The notes beneath the pieces were generated by a model. The model saw nothing but the letters and a program-made list of their open reading frames with translations. It searched no databases and was not told the origin of the DNA. Made by a program: the position numbers and the translations under genes. A stretch of 64,000 nucleotides of DNA from Armatimonadota bacterium (GTDB lineage: Bacteria; Armatimonadota; HRBIN16), in NCBI GenBank assembly GCA_026003175.1, contig BPGT01000002.1:620001-684000 (forward strand), given 5' to 3'. Below, in pieces: positions 28,674 to 36,751 of the stretch (positions are counted from its first letter, which is position 1; every line of letters starts with the position of its first letter).

Positions 28674-29882
28674 GTGAGAACAGCGTTTTACATGCTCGGC
28701 TGGTTGCTTCTGGCAATACAAGTTTCGGCACAACCCGTACCAGAGGAGTGGTTTCAGTATCCGCCCCAGCCGGTGCAAGCAGGAGTGCAACTGCTTAGCA
28801 CGACAGAGCAGAATACCCATCTGCTCGTCAGGTTCCCTAGCCTGATCCAGAGCACCGATTATCCACAAAACGGCACGGTGTACGCAGAGGTGTTTATCCC
28901 ACATGGAAACCAGAAGATGCCTGCGGTGATTATCCTGCATTCGTGGGGTGTGCAGAAGCCGGATATCGAACTCTCACTGGCGAGGACGCTGGCAAGACGC
29001 GGTTTTGTTACTGCGGTAATGACCTTGCCCTATCACATCCAGCGTACACCCAGCGGCTACTTGAGCGGAGAACTGATGATTGTGCCCGACGCCCGGCAAA
29101 TGCGCGACACCATGCGCCAGGCGGCTCTGGATACCATGCGCTTGATAGACTGGCTGCAATCCCAGCCACAAGTAGCCCCGGACAAGGTGGGCATTGTGGG
29201 CATCAGCCTGGGAGCGATTGTGAGCGCGCTGGTGTTGGGGGTGGAAAAGCGGGTGCAGGCAGGCGTACTGATACTGGGAGGGGCAAACCTGGCGCACATC
29301 TTGTGGCGAAGTCCGCTCACTATGAATGTGCGTAGTGAATTGCGCAGCAAAGGCTTTACCTACGAGAGCCTTCGCGAAGAGATGACTTCTGTAGAGCCGC
29401 TGACTTTTCTACATGCACAGTATGGCAACCGCGTGCTGATGGTGAACGGAAGATTTGACCTGGTGATACCCCGTGAAGACGCTCTTGCCCTGCGCCACGC
29501 TTTGGGTGACGGTCCCATCTTGTGGCTAAACACAGGGCATTACGGTCCCGCGCTGGTACGAGGCGCGCTGTTTAGAGTGGTCGAGCGGTTTCTGGTCTCG
29601 CAGCTGCAAGGTGGCGCAGAAACGTTTATCCTGCCTGAAACCCTCCATGAACCTACCCTCCGTATTGGCTTGCTTTACAGCGGAGCGTGGGGAGCACGAG
29701 TTAGCGCAGCGGTAGATGTGTGGCGCTGGGAGCGCGAGGGCAAAGCAGGGGTAGCTTTACAGGCTTCTCCGCGCAACGTCTCGGTGCTGGTGGGTTTCCG
29801 TCCCCTTTCGCCGCTACATGTGGGCATCGAGTTCTCTTCGCGAACCCCCTCAGGTTATATTTTGTTCCACTTCGTATTGTAG
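28674..29882 (+). CDS. Exported alpha/beta hydrolase (dienelactone hydrolase-like)
   Basis: This 402-residue protein starts at GTG 28674 with a signal peptide ('FYMLGWLLLAIQVSAQ'). The alpha/beta hydrolase core shows 'MPAVIILHSWG', the lid-side 'TLARRGFVTAVMTLPYHIQR', the nucleophile elbow 'VGIVGISLGAIVSAL' (Ser near residue 179), the acid in 'VNGRFDLVIPRED' and the base in 'LNTGHYGPAL'. It would hydrolyse esters in the periplasm; the substrate is unknown. A C-terminal part of about 90 residues has beta character. It stands alone between gyrB (divergent) and the dcw cluster. Confidence 0.7.
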   Translation: MRTAFYMLGWLLLAIQVSAQPVPEEWFQYPPQPVQAGVQLLSTTEQNTHLLVRFPSLIQSTDYPQNGTVYAEVFIPHGNQKMPAVIILHSWGVQKPDIELSLARTLARRGFVTAVMTLPYHIQRTPSGYLSGELMIVPDARQMRDTMRQAALDTMRLIDWLQSQPQVAPDKVGIVGISLGAIVSALVLGVEKRVQAGVLILGGANLAHILWRSPLTMNVRSELRSKGFTYESLREEMTSVEPLTFLHAQYGNRVLMVNGRFDLVIPREDALALRHALGDGPILWLNTGHYGPALVRGALFRVVERFLVSQLQGGAETFILPETLHEPTLRIGLLYSGAWGARVSAAVDVWRWEREGKAGVALQASPRNVSVLVGFRPLSPLHVGIEFSSRTPSGYILFHFVL

Positions 29883-29972
29883 ACCCGCCGTTGTAACGAC
29901 TCGGCAGAAGCCTCCTCTCTAAGCAGTAATACTCCACGCATAAATGTCTACATATAGTGGTCTCCCAAAAAT

Positions 29973-29994
29973 TTTTCTCAAAATATTGAGAAAA
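29973..29994. repeat. AT-rich inverted repeat upstream of the dcw promoter
   Basis: TTTTCTCAA, loop AATA, TTGAGAAAA: a perfect nine-base stem ending 14 bases before the -35 of the dcw promoter. It could be a protein-binding site or the terminator of the hydrolase gene (about 90 bases past its stop, no GC stem). Confidence 0.45.
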
Positions 29995-30008
29995 TGCCTC
30001 GAAAACCG

Positions 30009-30038
30009 TTGACAAGCCTGCCCCTTATTTTTTACAAT
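30009..30038 (+). promoter_or_regulatory. Promoter of the division and cell-wall (dcw) cluster
   Basis: TTGACA (30009-30014), 18-base spacer, TACAAT (30033-30038). Transcription should begin near 30045, directly before the GTGGA repeats. Confidence 0.75.
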
Positions 30039-30050
30039 ATGAGCAACCGG

Positions 30051-30088
30051 GTGGATGTTGGGTGGATAGTAGGTGGAAGGATAGTGGA
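30051..30088 (+). promoter_or_regulatory. Candidate MraZ operator: four GTGGA repeats at 11-bp spacing
   Basis: GTGGA occurs at 30051, 30062, 30073 and 30084, an exact 11-base period, just after the predicted transcription start. MraZ in other bacteria binds short G-rich direct repeats (TGGGN type, about one helical turn apart) in front of its own gene. Autoregulation of the cluster is inferred. Confidence 0.65.
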
Positions 30089-30134
30089 GGAACAGGCTCC
30101 AGACAAGCAGTTTCAGCAGCAGCTGGTGGAGGCA

Positions 30135-30626
30135 ATGGGCAGTGTTTCCGAAGCCTCGCCGCTGGCTCTGCTGCAGGGCTACTCGGAGCACTCGGTAGAT
30201 GACAAGGGGCGCATCATCATGCCGCAGCGCTTCCGGGAGCTGTTCGGTCGCGCCTGCGTGATTACGCAAGGTTGGGATCGGAGCTTGTTCGTCTTTCATC
30301 CTGACACCTGGCAACAGATACGGGCGCACCTGGCACGCTATCCGTTTATCAACGAAAATGCCGTGCGACTGCAACGGTTTTTTATCTCCCCAGCAGATAA
30401 TGTAGATATCGATTCGCAAGGGCGTCTGGCGATTCCTGCGCATTTGCGCGAGTACGCCAGTATCAGTCTACCTACTTCTGAATCGCCCAGCACGGTGGTG
30501 ATTGTGGGAGCGCCCTACCGTCTGGAAATCTGGAGCAAGCAGCGCTGGAAACAAGTGAACGAGCAGGTTGAGGATAGCACCATCTTCCAGGCAGCAGCCA
30601 TACTTGGTGTGACACTGGAGCTATAA
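30135..30626 (+). CDS. mraZ: Transcriptional regulator MraZ
   Basis: The frame is open from 29994, but the promoter and operator lie inside it, so the start must be further down. ATG 30135 (163 residues) is chosen, though GTG 30084 is possible; the GGAGG before 30135 is unusually close. The two AbrB-like half domains are 'YSEHSVDDKGRIIMPQRFRE' and 'VDIDSQGRLAIPAHLREYAS', with the conserved 'DxKGRxxxPxxxR' in each. MraZ forms ring oligomers, binds DNA repeats and represses the dcw genes. It is two bases upstream of rsmH. The C-terminus is slightly longer than usual. Confidence 0.85.
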   Translation: MGSVSEASPLALLQGYSEHSVDDKGRIIMPQRFRELFGRACVITQGWDRSLFVFHPDTWQQIRAHLARYPFINENAVRLQRFFISPADNVDIDSQGRLAIPAHLREYASISLPTSESPSTVVIVGAPYRLEIWSKQRWKQVNEQVEDSTIFQAAAILGVTLEL

Positions 30627-30628
30627 CC

Positions 30629-31570
30629 ATGATGACCATGAACAGCCATACGCCTGTAATGGTACGCGAGGTGTTGCAATTACTGCGCCCACAGCCGGGG
30701 GAGGTATTTGTAGATGCTACGGTGGGGCTGGGAGGGCATTCAGTGGAGATTGCTCCTCGCCTGATACCCGGAGGTTGGCTCATTGGTATTGACCGTGACC
30801 CAAGCGCGCTGGAGGTAGCGGCACGACGGCTGGAGCAGTTCAGTGGAGCCATACGTGTCACGCTGGTACATGCGGATTTTCGCAAGTTGCCGCAGGTGCT
30901 GAGCGCGCGCGGGTTAGAGGGAGTAGACGGAGTCCTGTACGACCTCGGCGTCAGCTCAATGCAACTGGATAGCGCGGAGCGCGGGTTCAGCTTCCGGTTC
31001 GATGCACCGCTGGATATGCGCATGGACACCACTGAGGGTGGTATTACCGCAGCAGATATTGTCAACCGCTGGAGCGAGGTGGATTTACGCCAACTGATCC
31101 AGGAGTATGGAGAAGAACCCGCTGCGGCGCGCATTGCCCGAGCCATTGTGCAGAACCGTCCGATACTCAGTACCCAGCAGCTCGCTGTGCTGGTAGCGAA
31201 GACAGTAGGGCGCCGGGGAGGGCATATTCATCCGGCAACGCGCACTTTTCAGGCGTTACGCATTGCGGTCAACCGAGAGCTGGATGGTTTGCAGGAGGCT
31301 ATAGAGCAGGCGATCCATTGTTTGTTGCCGGGGGGGCGCATTGTAGTGCTGACCTATCATTCGTTGGAGGCGCGTGCGGTCAAGCGAGCTTTGCAGCGAC
31401 TCAGCGGTAAGTGCGTTTGCCCACCTTATGTGCCTGAGTGCCAGTGTGGGGCGAAGCGACTAATACGGGTTCTCACTCCTCACGCGCTTAAGCCAGATGC
31501 AGAAGAGGTCGCTCGCAATCCGCGCTCTCGAAGCGCGCAGTGTCGCGCTGCCGAGAGGCTTGAAGTGTAA
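30629..31570 (+). CDS. rsmH: 16S rRNA (cytosine(1402)-N4)-methyltransferase RsmH (MraW)
   Basis: This 313-residue SAM-dependent enzyme has 'HTPVMVREVLQLL' at the start, 'FVDATVGLGGHSVEIAPRL' as motif I, 'VDGVLYDLGVSSMQLDSAER' and 'PLDMRMDT'. The end is 'VVLTYHSLEARAVKRALQRL'. It methylates N4 of C1402 in 16S rRNA at the P site. ATG 30629 is two bases after the mraZ stop; nearby ATGs at 30632 and 30638 are alternatives. A Cys cluster ('GKCVCPPYVPECQCG') near the C-terminus, usual in this family, is present. Confidence 0.92.
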   Translation: MMTMNSHTPVMVREVLQLLRPQPGEVFVDATVGLGGHSVEIAPRLIPGGWLIGIDRDPSALEVAARRLEQFSGAIRVTLVHADFRKLPQVLSARGLEGVDGVLYDLGVSSMQLDSAERGFSFRFDAPLDMRMDTTEGGITAADIVNRWSEVDLRQLIQEYGEEPAAARIARAIVQNRPILSTQQLAVLVAKTVGRRGGHIHPATRTFQALRIAVNRELDGLQEAIEQAIHCLLPGGRIVVLTYHSLEARAVKRALQRLSGKCVCPPYVPECQCGAKRLIRVLTPHALKPDAEEVARNPRSRSAQCRAAERLEV

Positions 31571-31592: not shown

Positions 31593-31940
31593 ATGGTCTT
31601 TCAACATGTCGTTCGGACGGGGGTGCGAGTACGTTCTAAAGCCGTCGCCGGATCCCGTGTTCTTTACGGGGCGCGTCTGTGGTGTACCCTCGTTGTGGCC
31701 GTTGGTGCGGTTGCGTATATTACAGCGTGCGGCTACGTGTACAACCTTTCGCGTGAGCGACACCGATTGATGGTGCAGCGGAACGAGCTGAAGCGGGAAT
31801 ACCTGCTTCTGCGTAGTCAGTGCGAAGCGTTGCGCAACCCGCTGCGTATCCAAAAGCAGGCAAAATCTTACGGTATGGTGCTATTGACCGAACCGCAGGC
31901 AGTGGCTGCCGCACCGGTTGTTCTGGCTCAGCGAAACTGA
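31593..31940 (+). CDS. ftsL: Cell division protein FtsL-like
   Basis: ATG 31593 is chosen because AAGGAGGG lies five bases upstream. The 115-residue protein has a basic N-terminus, one transmembrane helix (about 30-51, 'LVVAVGAVAYITACGYVYNL') and a short coiled coil ('RHRLMVQRNELKREYLLLRS'). The block 'NPLRIQKQAKSYGM' follows, the typical FtsL/DivIC end where the helix breaks. It would sit in the inner membrane and bridge FtsQ, FtsB and the FtsWI synthase. Position between rsmH and ftsI supports the call despite low sequence conservation. Confidence 0.8.
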   Translation: MVFQHVVRTGVRVRSKAVAGSRVLYGARLWCTLVVAVGAVAYITACGYVYNLSRERHRLMVQRNELKREYLLLRSQCEALRNPLRIQKQAKSYGMVLLTEPQAVAAAPVVLAQRN

Positions 31941-31959
31941 GCACAGGGGGTACCCGCTA

Positions 31960-33846
31960 ATGGCTGTGCGTCGACAAGGGCGTCGGTTTTCTCTTGAGGA
32001 CGCTCAGTGGAGATTGTTGCTGACCGGGTGGATAGTTACTCTACTTTTCTTCGGGGCGTGGGCGCGCTTGCTGTATCTGCAGACAGCCAAAGCAGATGCT
32101 TTGCGCACACAGGCACAGAGGTACGGAGGGCTGCGTAAGCGCGCATGGACGGTCTACGGGATGCGAGGAGCCATCAAGGACCGTCTGGGCAATGTGCTGG
32201 CAATGGACGTGATGTCCCTTTCTATCTACATCCGTCCTAAAGCGATCTCTGACGTGGAGCAGACATCCCGGCAGTTGGGCGCAGTGCTGGGCACGCCCGC
32301 TTCGGATATCGAGAGGCAGATTCTCCGGTGGAAAAGGCTTGTCGAGACGGCAGAGCAGAAAGATTCTTCAACACGACGTGATGAGACACGAAAGAGTGTC
32401 CCTCGCTCGTTCTCCCTGCAGAGGCAGCTGGTGGGCGAGAAAGCAAGGCGGTTGAAGGAAGCGATTGCTCGAGAGAGACAGCGCCTCAGTGAAGAGAACG
32501 AACAGCTTGCAAGTTCGCACGCAGGCGCAGATGTTCGGCTCACATCATGGCTGGATGGAGTGGATGTGGTGGAAGAACCGTGTCGTCGGTATCCATATGG
32601 AGCGATTGCTTCTGCTCTCATCGGTTTCACCAGCTTAGACGAGAAGGGCTTAGCAGGTATCGAGCATCTTTTTGAAGGAACGCTTGGCGCCAGGCACGGT
32701 CGGGTAGAGGGGGTGCTAGGGGCGAGAGGGCAGATAGTTGCCGGCACGCGGACAGTGCGGGTTCCAGCAAGAAACGGCAACGACGTGCAGCTGACCATCG
32801 ATGCGAATATCCAGAACATCGCCGAAGAGTGCTTGCAAGAAGTGATGCAAAAGCACCAGCCAGCTGGTGCGTGCGCTGTGGTGATGGACGTGCGCACCGG
32901 AGATCTACTTGCAGTAGCCAGTATGCCACGTATTGACCTGAATAACTGGCGACAGGAGTTGAAGCGATACGGATTGGGTGTGATGCGCAACATGGCAACC
33001 ACGTTTCTGTTTGAACCCGGATCCACGTTCAAGCCTATCACCATCGCGGCGGCAATGCAGGTTGGGTTAGTGGGAGATAACAGCCGTTTTTATTGTAAGG
33101 GTTCGTTGAAAATCGGTAGGCATACCATCCATTGTGCCCGACACGGTGGTTCGCGGGCGCACGGGCAGCAGAGCCTGAAAGAGGTGGTTGCCCACTCTTG
33201 CAACATCGCAACTGCCCAGGTTGGCATGAAGCTGGGGGCGCATGCTCTGTATGAAGCGGTGCAACGGTTCGGGTTGTTGGAGAAACCGGTAGCGGGCAGC
33301 TTGAGAGGCAGACTGGAAAAACCGGGCGATTGGGCGAAGATACGGCTGGCAAACGTCGCCTTTGGGCAGGGAGTTCAGGTAACGCCACTGGGGCTAGCAG
33401 CTGCCTACGCGGCGATAGCTAACGACGGCGTGTACGTGAAGCCCCGACTTCTGCTGAACGAGCCAACGGAAACGCGCGTCGTGCTGTCGCCGGAGGTTGC
33501 GCGTCACATGCGCGAGTACCTGAAGGCGGTCGTAGATGAGGGCACGGGTAAGCTTGCAGATGTGAGGGGATACGCGGTGGCAGGTAAAACGGGCACCGCC
33601 CAGAAAGTGGACCCGGGCAGGCGAGGGTACGCATCTGGTAAATACGTGGCGTCCTTCGTGGGCTTTGCGCCCGCCGATGCACCGCGTATCGTAGTGCTGG
33701 TAGCAGTGGACGAGCCACGTAACGGTTACTTTGGAGGCGCCGTAGCTGCACCCGCCTTTGCCAGAATCACCGAGCGAGTACTGGCGTACCTGGGCGTCCC
33801 TGCTATGCCCGATAAGCAAAAGCACGTATCGCTTTCCAGTCGCTAA
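31960..33846 (+). CDS. ftsI: Septal peptidoglycan transpeptidase (class B PBP, FtsI/SpoVD)
   Basis: This 628-residue protein starts at ATG 31960 behind AGGGGG. One transmembrane helix spans residues 24-43. The pedestal domain carries 'GMRGAIKDRLGNVLAMD', and a charged helical insert lies at about residues 125-185. Transpeptidase motifs are 'EPGSTFKPITI' (active Ser), 'VAHSCNIATAQ' and 'GKTGTAQKV'. It cross-links septal wall with FtsW. No PASTA domain is seen at the C-terminus, so it is closer to FtsI than to SpoVD/Pbp2x. Confidence 0.9.
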   Translation: MAVRRQGRRFSLEDAQWRLLLTGWIVTLLFFGAWARLLYLQTAKADALRTQAQRYGGLRKRAWTVYGMRGAIKDRLGNVLAMDVMSLSIYIRPKAISDVEQTSRQLGAVLGTPASDIERQILRWKRLVETAEQKDSSTRRDETRKSVPRSFSLQRQLVGEKARRLKEAIARERQRLSEENEQLASSHAGADVRLTSWLDGVDVVEEPCRRYPYGAIASALIGFTSLDEKGLAGIEHLFEGTLGARHGRVEGVLGARGQIVAGTRTVRVPARNGNDVQLTIDANIQNIAEECLQEVMQKHQPAGACAVVMDVRTGDLLAVASMPRIDLNNWRQELKRYGLGVMRNMATTFLFEPGSTFKPITIAAAMQVGLVGDNSRFYCKGSLKIGRHTIHCARHGGSRAHGQQSLKEVVAHSCNIATAQVGMKLGAHALYEAVQRFGLLEKPVAGSLRGRLEKPGDWAKIRLANVAFGQGVQVTPLGLAAAYAAIANDGVYVKPRLLLNEPTETRVVLSPEVARHMREYLKAVVDEGTGKLADVRGYAVAGKTGTAQKVDPGRRGYASGKYVASFVGFAPADAPRIVVLVAVDEPRNGYFGGAVAAPAFARITERVLAYLGVPAMPDKQKHVSLSSR

Positions 33847-33861: not shown

Positions 33862-33890
33862 ACGTAGGGTATCGCTCTGAGGTGAATAAA

Positions 33891-35369
33891 ATGCCGCGGG
33901 TTCTGCTATCCAAGTTAATAGAGTCGCTTCCCGAAGCCCATCTGATAGGTGCACCTGACGTTCGTGTGTGGGTAACGGACGTGGCTTACGACTCGCGTCA
34001 GGTGAAGCCAGGGGCACTTTTTGTAGCGATACCCGGACAGCGGTATGATGGGCACGACTTTGTGCAGGACGCACTGTCGCATGGTGCGGTAGCGGTGGTG
34101 GTAGAACGCCCTGTGGAGGTTGCTTCGGTGCCCGTGCTGCAGGTACCTTGTGCTCGAGAAGCACTCGCCCTGCTCGCCAACCGATTTTACGGTTCGCCGT
34201 CGCGTTCTCTGTTGCTGGTTGGGGTGACCGGAACCAACGGCAAGACCACGACCACACACCTTATCGCCCATCTGTTGCGGGCGAACGGTTTTCGTACGGG
34301 TACTATCGGCACGCTGGGGGCAGTACTGGACGCAGTAGGCGAAGTGCCTATATCACATACGACACCAGAATCGCCCGATATCCAGCGTGTGCTTTATACA
34401 GCTGTACAGCATAGGGTGCAAGCAGTGGTGATGGAGGTTTCCTCCCATGCGCTGCACCAGCATCGCACGCTGGGACTGGAGTTTGACGTCGCGGTATTTA
34501 CCAATCTGACCCAGGACCATCTGGACTATCATCAGACGATGGAAGAGTATGCACGAAGCAAACAACGGCTTTTCGTAGAGTATCCGCAGCGCAGCAGGAA
34601 GCGATTTCAGGCGGTGTTTAACCTTGACGATGCAACAGGCAGAAGGTGGTACGAGGAAACTATTTATACTCGATGGGGGTATGGGGTATCCAGCATAGAC
34701 GCTTCTGTGAGAGCTCTGGGGGTACGCTTGTTCCCCGATGCTGTGCAGATGCGCCTGGCAACCCCGGTGGGGGAGCGCGAGGTGCGCGTTCCGTTGGGCG
34801 GAGCGTTTCAGGTATACAACATCCTGGCGGCGATCACCGCCTCCTTCGCCTTGTCGCTTTCCCCCGAGGTGATTTTTGAGGCGCTGGGTGAGACGCCGCA
34901 GGTGCCTGGGCGATTTGAGATTATCCCCAATCGGCGCGGGATAACGGTTGTCGTGGACTACGCACACACTCCGGATGGGCTGGAAAACCTGTTGCGCTCG
35001 GCAAGGGCATTACAGCCCCGACGTCTAATTACTGTATTCGGTTGTGGCGGTAACCGCGACCGCTCCAAACGCCCCAGGATGGGGGCTATTGCCTCCGAAC
35101 TGGCAGACCTGTGTGTGGTCACATCGGACAACCCGCGTCACGAACCACCTGAAGCGATTATCGAGGAGATTTTGCAGGGCATCCCCCGGCGGGAAACGGT
35201 TCTGGTAGAGCAGGATCGGCGCAAAGCGATTGCTCTGGCTATCCAGCACGCGCAGCCGGGAGACATGGTGGTGATTGCGGGCAAGGGACATGAAACCGTA
35301 CAAATCGTCGGAGAGGAGCGGATCCCCTTTGACGACAGACAGGTTGCACGTGAGATTCTGGAAGGCTGA
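33891..35369 (+). CDS. murE: UDP-MurNAc-L-Ala-D-Glu:meso-DAP ligase MurE
   Basis: ATG 33891 is preferred over GTG 33882, since that GTG lies inside the GAGGTG ribosome-binding site. The 492-residue ligase has the ATP loop 'GVTGTNGKTTTTHL' near residue 113, 'EVSSHALHQHR', 'VVDYAHTPDGLENLL' and 'FGCGGNRDRSKRPRMG'. The motif 'DNPRHEPPEAI' is the DNPR signature of meso-diaminopimelate-adding enzymes, so the wall is predicted to be DAP-type. It acts in the cytoplasm, third step of stem peptide assembly, and is followed five bases later by murF. Confidence 0.92.
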   Translation: MPRVLLSKLIESLPEAHLIGAPDVRVWVTDVAYDSRQVKPGALFVAIPGQRYDGHDFVQDALSHGAVAVVVERPVEVASVPVLQVPCAREALALLANRFYGSPSRSLLLVGVTGTNGKTTTTHLIAHLLRANGFRTGTIGTLGAVLDAVGEVPISHTTPESPDIQRVLYTAVQHRVQAVVMEVSSHALHQHRTLGLEFDVAVFTNLTQDHLDYHQTMEEYARSKQRLFVEYPQRSRKRFQAVFNLDDATGRRWYEETIYTRWGYGVSSIDASVRALGVRLFPDAVQMRLATPVGEREVRVPLGGAFQVYNILAAITASFALSLSPEVIFEALGETPQVPGRFEIIPNRRGITVVVDYAHTPDGLENLLRSARALQPRRLITVFGCGGNRDRSKRPRMGAIASELADLCVVTSDNPRHEPPEAIIEEILQGIPRRETVLVEQDRRKAIALAIQHAQPGDMVVIAGKGHETVQIVGEERIPFDDRQVAREILEG

Positions 35370-35374
35370 ATACT

Positions 35375-36751
35375 ATGGAGATTATTACTCTGGATGATAT
35401 CGCAAAGGCTATTGGGGGCGTGCTCTCTGGGGAGCGAAAGCGTCCGGTAAGGGGCATCAGCATCGACAGCAGAACTGTTGAGCCAGACTACCTCTTCTTT
35501 GCGCTGCCAGGCGAGCATACAGATGGACACCGGTATGTACGCATGAGCGCGGAGCGAGGCGCAGCCGGGGCGGTGGTTTCGCAGCCGGTGGATGCCCCGA
35601 AAGGGTTCCCGCTTATCTATGTGGCAGATACCACGTGGGCGCTGGGCTGTTTCGCACGCTGGTATCGGGGTTTGTTCCGTATCCCCGTGGTGGGAATCAC
35701 AGGAAGCGCAGGCAAAACGACGACGAAAGAGATGACCGCCGCCGCCCTTAGCGCACGCCATAACGTGCTTAAATCGCCCCAGAACCTGAACACCGAAATC
35801 GGTTTGCCGCTGGCGATTGCCCAGCTGCAGAAGCACCACACGGTAGCTGTGCTGGAGATGGCGATGCGCGGTAGAGGACAAATCGACTGGCTGGCAACCA
35901 TCGCTCGCCCCACTATCGGTGTGATTACCAACATCGGTTGGGCACATCTGGGGCTACTTGGCTCACGGGATAACATCGCTCTGGCAAAGTCCGAGCTGCT
36001 GCACCGCCTGCCCGAGGACGGGGTGGCTGTGTTGAACGCAGATGACGATTATTTTGAGTTCTGTCGTCGGCAGGCACCTTGCCCGGTTATCTCCTTTGGG
36101 CGGCAACGCGCGGCAACGGTGCGTGCGGTGAAGGTGCGGTTGGAGCAAGACGGCAGGGTACGATGTATGGTGCGCCACAAGCGGGAGGTCGTTCCTCTGC
36201 GGGTTCCTGTGCCCGGCTTACATCATCTCAGCAACGCGCTGGCGGCTCTGGCGGTGGCGGTCGCACTGGAGGTTCCGCTTGCAGAAGCTACGGAAGGTCT
36301 ACAGCAGATGCAGGCAGCGGATAAGCGTATGCAGATTCATCATACCCCGAAGCAAATCACTGTGCTGGACGACACCTACAATGCTAACCCTGCTTCGGTG
36401 AGCGCGGCGTTGCATACGCTGGAGCACATGGCAAACGGCTGCAGGCGCGTGGTGGTGCTGGGAGATATGCTTGAGCTGGGCGATGAGTCGCCTCGGCTGC
36501 ATCGTGAGGTCGGGCGAGAGGCGGCGCGAATCGGCGCGGATATACTGGTTGCAGTCGGTGAAATGGCGGAAGAGGTGGTGCAGGGCGCGAAGAGCACAGG
36601 TCACGCTCCAGTATGCCTGACCTTTGTGGATAGTCGCACTGCAGCAGAGAACGTTCCTCGCTACCTGCAACCCGGCGACGTGGTGCTGGTCAAGGGGTCG
36701 CGTGCATTGCAGATGGAAATGGTTGTCAAAGCTATTTCCGAGGACTGTTGA
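35375..36751 (+). CDS. murF: UDP-MurNAc-tripeptide:D-Ala-D-Ala ligase MurF
   Basis: This 458-residue ligase has the N-terminal 'VRGISIDSRTVEPDYLFFAL', the ATP loop 'GITGSAGKTTTKEMTAAAL' (about residues 106-124), 'GVITNIGWAHLGLLGS' and 'VLDDTYNANPASVSAAL'. The end is 'LVKGSRALQMEMVVKA'. It adds the D-Ala-D-Ala dipeptide made by Ddl, whose gene lies further down the same cluster. ATG 35375 is five bases after murE. Confidence 0.92.
   Translation: MEIITLDDIAKAIGGVLSGERKRPVRGISIDSRTVEPDYLFFALPGEHTDGHRYVRMSAERGAAGAVVSQPVDAPKGFPLIYVADTTWALGCFARWYRGLFRIPVVGITGSAGKTTTKEMTAAALSARHNVLKSPQNLNTEIGLPLAIAQLQKHHTVAVLEMAMRGRGQIDWLATIARPTIGVITNIGWAHLGLLGSRDNIALAKSELLHRLPEDGVAVLNADDDYFEFCRRQAPCPVISFGRQRAATVRAVKVRLEQDGRVRCMVRHKREVVPLRVPVPGLHHLSNALAALAVAVALEVPLAEATEGLQQMQAADKRMQIHHTPKQITVLDDTYNANPASVSAALHTLEHMANGCRRVVVLGDMLELGDESPRLHREVGREAARIGADILVAVGEMAEEVVQGAKSTGHAPVCLTFVDSRTAAENVPRYLQPGDVVLVKGSRALQMEMVVKAISEDC

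Follow-up and report, generated by a model that had tools for sequence, protein, structure and literature searches.

A four-box GTGGA array with an 11-bp period as a probable MraZ operator of the dcw cluster in an Armatimonadota bacterium

Four exact copies of GTGGA, one every 11 bp, lie between a predicted promoter and mraZ, the first gene of the dcw cluster in the 64-kb window, the whole stretch of Armatimonadota DNA that was analyzed. The array very probably constitutes an autoregulatory MraZ operator of this cluster, a variant with 11-bp spacing, whose binding by MraZ and repressive action we infer from sequence comparison. An earlier note on this DNA had put the array forward as a candidate MraZ operator, and its conservation in relatives and its place before mraZ support that candidacy.

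The array and its promoter

Direct reading of the plus strand places GTGGA at 30051, 30062, 30073 and 30084; all four copies are exact and the period is exactly 11 bp, as the earlier note had stated. The array proper spans 30051–30088, and the longer span given in that note begins at 30009, the first base of the −35 element of the promoter. Counted with the six bases that follow each core, the boxes are box 1 (GTGGA TGTTGG, 30051–30061), box 2 (GTGGA TAGTAG, 30062–30072), box 3 (GTGGA AGGATA, 30073–30083) and box 4 (GTGGA GGAACA, 30084–30094), so that the spacers within the array are, in order, TGTTGG, TAGTAG and AGGATA.

No other 5-mer occurs four times at any fixed period of 8–14 bp in the window. 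When up to three mismatches are allowed, the four-unit pattern has a single match in the window and none in 100 dinucleotide shuffles. Throughout the bacterium's own 4.1-Mb genome, three exact units are found only at this array. Four GTGGW units with up to two mismatches are found at the array (no mismatches) and at one other place (two mismatches), and the reversed control of this search returned four matches.

The promoter is predicted by a consensus scan. It is a strong promoter of the sigma-70 type, lies on the plus strand at 30009–30038 and consists of TTGACA (30009–30014), an 18-bp spacer and TACAAT (30033–30038), with 11 of 12 consensus matches; the scan found no second promoter in 29880–30200. 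The first box begins 12 bp past the −10 element. A short way upstream of the −35 element, positions 29973–29994 hold a perfect inverted repeat, TTTTCTCAA-AATA-TTGAGAAAA, which recurs in the genus members and is slightly altered in L033 and L037. This repeat is a possible site for a second regulator.

Conservation within the genus

The genus is represented by 10 genomes, nine of which have an mraZ match; the tenth, which is 77% complete, has none. The earlier note had proposed looking for the same array upstream of mraZ in relatives and would have taken its absence as evidence against an operator. The array is present in all nine genomes with mraZ, and its distance to the MraZ domain is constant among them; arrays with other spacings occur upstream of mraZ across the phylum, in Bacillota and in E. 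coli. Eight of the nine genus members carry four GTGGW boxes. In box 1, GTGGATGTT is unchanged in 9/9; the GTGG of boxes 2 and 3 is likewise kept in 9/9; and box 4 is GTGGA in 8/9 and GCGGA in locus L039. The promoter with its 18-bp spacer is retained in 9/9. Away from mraZ, the genus genomes contain no run of three GTGGW units at 11 bp.

Conservation is concentrated in the boxes, with a mean pairwise identity in the genus of 0.986 for the GTGG cores and 0.686 for the spacers. Cores that are kept while spacers diverge are what selection on a protein-binding element with several sites would leave, and not what a fresh tandem duplication would show. The same divergence of the spacers around constant cores is the ground for rejecting a slippage microsatellite.

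True 11-bp microsatellites do exist elsewhere, away from mraZ, for example on G260:C51. The locus there (L278, G260:C51:11722–11792, not near mraZ) is a tandem of about seven copies of GTGGAGACCCA, detected as five overlapping three-unit matches; it looks like a microsatellite, though its unit is identical to an MraZ box unit of family f17.

The MraZ protein and the dcw genes

The product of mraZ is matched by PF02381 over both halves, in two stretches (E 2.9e-30 for the frame starting at 30084). The DXXXR motifs of the two halves, D12–R16 and D83–R87, which have a role in DNA binding, are invariant in nine aligned sequences. An AlphaFold model of the product (pLDDT 90.7) aligns with the MraZ structures of M. 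pneumoniae and M. genitalium at Z scores of 19.6–21.7, the highest being 21.7 for 1n0e. The structure matches include 9sz7 and 9r4j, entries whose titles describe MraZ in complex with a four-box promoter and with its promoter, respectively. With two half-domains and a modeled MraZ fold, the product is assigned to the PF02381 MraZ proteins. Its C-terminal half carries an insertion of about five residues around SLPTS (approximately 30460–30505), which is absent from eight other aligned phylum sequences.

The array and mraZ are followed on the plus strand by rsmH (mraW; 30629–31570; PF01795, E 3.8e-101), a division/cell-wall penicillin-binding protein that is of the FtsI type by its place (31918–33846; PF00905 and PF03717) and two Mur ligases (33882–36751; PF08245, PF02875 and PF01225 in both), read as murE and murF from their order. 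This gene order is that of a dcw cluster. Several genomes of the phylum have two mraZ genes (L009/L106, L012/L112, L064/L077 and others, with families f24 and f32–f35 among those represented), and each copy might have an operator of its own.

The start of mraZ

The earlier note had held that the longest mraZ frame is mis-started, and the genus comparison supports this. The start in question, ATG 29994, precedes the −35 element and is present in only 2/9 genus genomes, and L037 has an in-frame TGA immediately before box 1. The conserved in-frame candidates are GTG 30051 (9/9), GTG 30084 (8/9) and GTG 30126 (9/9). In L039, where the GTG of box 4 is lost, an in-frame ATG lies one codon upstream, which favors a start at box 4. 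From 30084 to the domain the frame has no stop in 9/9 genus members, whereas stops interrupt one or both of the remaining frames in 6/9. Variation by codon position in the N-terminal extension (−96 to −54) is 0.349, 0.204 and 0.363, compared with 0.099, 0.091 and 0.341 in the clearly coding part; this signal is weak, so that GTG 30084 is favored rather than established. By these comparisons mraZ most likely starts at the GTG of box 4 and occupies 30084–30626 on the plus strand, with GTG 30126 and ATG 30135 as alternatives. AGGTGG at 30071–30076, in box 3, may do double duty as a ribosome-binding site.

A rival reading takes the array for nothing more than a chance repetition within a ribosome-binding or N-terminal coding sequence. 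The likely translation start falls within boxes 3 and 4, the frame of the window is open through the array, and GTGGA-rich DNA near starts may arise as ribosome-binding sequence, a point that counts against an operator. Against a purely coding or ribosome-binding origin stand the L037 stop codon, the even variation of the three codon positions across the array (0.23, 0.255 and 0.21) and the boxes of other lineages, whose first unit lies some 28 to 130 bp, or farther, ahead of the MraZ domain. Chance repetition of such sequence is a very unlikely source of the array. In two loci of family f6 (L028 and L075) the box array reaches or crosses the mraZ start, and in L028 the codons of the first residues, which are of the MFRG type, contain one GTGG.

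Box spacing across the phylum, Bacillota and E. coli

The 11-bp period was set in context with 183 anchored mraZ loci from 172 genomes, 121 genera and 35 families of the phylum. They derive from 197 records (196 loci and the window), from which eight without an MraZ anchor (seven mraZ loci and one 100-base piece) and six duplicates were left out; L281, a further f17 locus with an array, stands outside this count. An MraZ match is present in 258 of 291 phylum genomes, and mraZ regions were surveyed from part of these.

On the coding strand, GTGG pairs occur 106 times at 11 bp and 43 times at 10 bp, with about 1.3 expected for each from shuffles. Further peaks lie at 21–22 and 31–33 bp, where shuffles give about 1–2 per distance, and the opposite strand of the same loci shows no comparable excess. 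A pair 10 or 11 bp apart is found upstream of mraZ in 70 of the 183 loci and is lacking in the other 113, which implies that the box has diverged, lies elsewhere or is absent in many relatives. At least three contiguous units are present in 42 loci, with steps that are all 11 bp in 26, mixed in 11 and all 10 bp in five. Arrays with only 11-bp steps are found in 9/9 loci of the window's own family, f1, and in 12/14 loci of f17. When each of the 121 genera is represented by one locus, the pairs number 40 at 11 bp and 37 at 10 bp, so that the excess in the full set comes in part from deep sampling of f1 and f17. A promoter scoring at least 9 is present in 38 of the 42 loci, 35 of which have their first GTGG 7–18 bp past the −10 element.

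Bacillota also have AGTGG-core arrays upstream of mraZ, and differ in their spacing. Among 80 loci, arrays of at least three units have only 10-bp steps in 62, mixed steps in seven and only 11-bp steps in none, and 11 loci have fewer than three units. The survey of the phylum, Bacillota and E. coli thus indicates that the uniform 11-bp period is a lineage-specific trait of the known MraZ box. The earlier claim of an 11-bp rather than a 10-bp period is borne out, as a property of particular lineages.

Spacing is associated with the base that follows the core. GTGGA units account for 80 pairs, of which 72 are at 11 bp, and units with other fifth bases give 34 pairs at 11 bp and 35 at 10 bp. Fisher's test gives p values of 5e-8 for all loci and 0.0015 without f1 and f17, both overstated since the pairs are related, and mixed 10/11 arrays break the rule. 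Mapped on a tree of MraZ, which has many long branches, the 11-bp label requires seven changes, at least three of them forced by starred branches.

The pair counts also bear on the proposal that the G-rich stretch forms a two-tetrad G-quadruplex, as claimed for the mraZ promoter of S. aureus. The accessible text of PMC11796246 reports the G-rich region of S. aureus PmraZ as G-quadruplex-forming, which serves as a precedent, and the array has many GG pairs. Fewer than four GGG tracts, however, are present in 30040–30095, and the T of GTGG is invariant, with neither GAGG nor GCGG as a substitute. Pairs of the same word at 10 and 11 bp number 43 and 106 for GTGG, 0 and 3 for GAGG, and 6 and 2 for GCGG; the 23 and 20 of GGGG are inflated by G runs. 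A quadruplex, moreover, has no need for the spacing lock at 10–11, 20–22 and 31–33 bp. It is highly improbable that quadruplex formation accounts for the array.

Unit sequence bears on another alternative, in which the four repeats are clustered DnaA boxes that tie expression of the dcw operon to the initiation of replication. GTGGA occurs within the DnaA box consensus TGTGGATAA, and 11-bp-spaced arrays of TGTGGATAA occur in other families of the phylum, beside dnaA or recF by frame calls made by eye. The units in the window nevertheless depart from this consensus at two to four of nine positions. Only GTGGW is kept, and the rest of the unit varies, as does the base after GTGG; mraZ units elsewhere read, for example, GTGGAGACTCA in other families and AGTGGTGNAAA in Bacillota. 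The sequence of the units disfavors DnaA boxes to the point that this explanation is scarcely credible.

Two loci of the phylum, L279 and L280 (G173:C5 and G008:C1), contain TGTGGATAACYT arrays with an 11-bp period that are probably DnaA boxes at a replication origin. In L280 the array adjoins the end of a DnaA-like frame, and in L279 it adjoins a RecF-like frame; both frames were named by eye.

Comparison with known MraZ operators

The sequence features expected of an MraZ operator are found here with one exception. The array lies upstream of mraZ at the head of the dcw cluster; where three or more direct repeats of a GTG(G) core, spaced by roughly a helical turn, are expected, it has four, all exact; and, by the predicted promoter, it sits just past the −10 element, near the predicted transcription start. 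The exception is the period, which is 11 bp throughout instead of exactly 10 bp, and the 10-bp spacing of published MraZ sites is a point against an operator. The array is classed as a variant rather than a plain member because of this period, given that spacing varies by lineage, that mixed arrays exist and that MraZ tolerates 11 bp in vitro according to the accessible text of PMC5282649.

The mraZ gene of E. coli K-12, whose sequence was checked, likewise has same-strand direct repeats with a GTGG core after the −10 element and ahead of mraZ. It differs in having three GTGGG at 10 bp that start 7 bp past the −10, compared with four GTGGA at 11 bp that start 12 bp past it. Eraso 2014 is said to describe the E. 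coli boxes as TGGGN direct repeats with a 10-bp period.

Repression by MraZ of its own operon is reported for E. coli and M. genitalium (accessible text of PMC8475190). In B. cenocepacia, MraZ binds a four-repeat fragment downstream of the −10 element; that PmraZ, whose repeats overlap the transcription start, resembles the present array in having four repeats past the −10 element, and differs in its 7-nt repeats and 3-nt spacers, which make a 10-bp period (PMC7761207, from the portion available). The mycoplasma site is given as (AAAGTGKN3)3, with a 10-bp period (PMC5282649, in part). Both this Mollicute system, represented also by 9sz7 with four boxes according to its title, and, probably, the array involve a multi-box operator, with an octamer-forming MraZ in the Mollicutes; the Mollicute site has a 10-bp period and an A-rich lead-in, whereas the array has 11 bp and no AAA before the core. 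The same partial source reports that M. gallisepticum MraZ also binds the HsdC site, (GTGTTAN5)2, which has an 11-bp period, as a single octamer and with comparable strength. This puts an 11-bp operator within the reach of MraZ. A literature search that covered few subscription papers returned no description of an 11-bp MraZ box or of MraZ in this group.

These comparisons suggest how the operator would work. MraZ, the product of the first dcw gene, would repress its own operon through the GTGGW boxes, the four of which would form one composite operator. Neighboring subunits of the MraZ ring would each read one GTGG through the major groove, every box lying roughly a turn of the helix beyond the one before. 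Counted from the predicted transcription start, the boxes begin near +6 and reach the likely start codon, and a ring bound over this interval would block promoter clearance. It would also cover the translation start region.

Outlying GTGG sites and helical phase

Two further GTGG sites flank the array on the plus strand. GTGGA at 30126–30130, which the earlier note had missed, begins 42 bp (4.0 turns of 10.5 bp) past box 4 and is GTGGAG in 9/9 genus members; it may be an additional half-site or else another GTG at which mraZ could start. GTGGT at 29957–29961, 94 bp (8.95 turns) before box 1 and with GTGG in 6/9 genus members, is a weak candidate half-site. In f17, 11 of the 12 loci with arrays of at least three units have a GTGG 52–53 bp ahead of box 1, a little beyond the −35 element. 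The 42-, 94- and 52–53-bp offsets are all near whole turns of 10.5 bp. Across genera, 21 of 36 outlying GTGG lie within 0.15 turn of an integer, with 10.8 expected; when offsets below 30 bp are excluded, a cut set by hand from the same list, 14 of 28 are in phase (p 0.02). This modest signal is no more than suggestive of helical phasing.

Implications for MraZ and its lineages

MraZ is among the most widespread bacterial division regulators, and its solved promoter complexes come from mycoplasma, for which a 10-bp box period is published. A phylum with all-11, all-10 and mixed arrays offers a natural experiment on the way the ring recognizes multi-box DNA and on whether changes in the protein or the twist of the DNA set the spacing. 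The analysis also corrects the start of mraZ and indicates that the probable operator extends into the translation start.

A more speculative and rather unlikely idea is that box spacing is a tuned trait. The 11-bp operator would be held under-wound, or wrapped by the MraZ ring with a writhe opposite to that of operators with 10-bp spacing in E. coli, Bacillota and mycoplasmas, and mixed arrays would be flat. If true, the outlying GTGG sites in helical phase (at 42 bp on the downstream side and 94 bp on the upstream side in this genus, 52–53 bp upstream in f17) would let one ring wrap the whole promoter, and supercoiling of the DNA would be coupled to repression of division in opposite senses in lineages with 10-bp and with 11-bp spacing.
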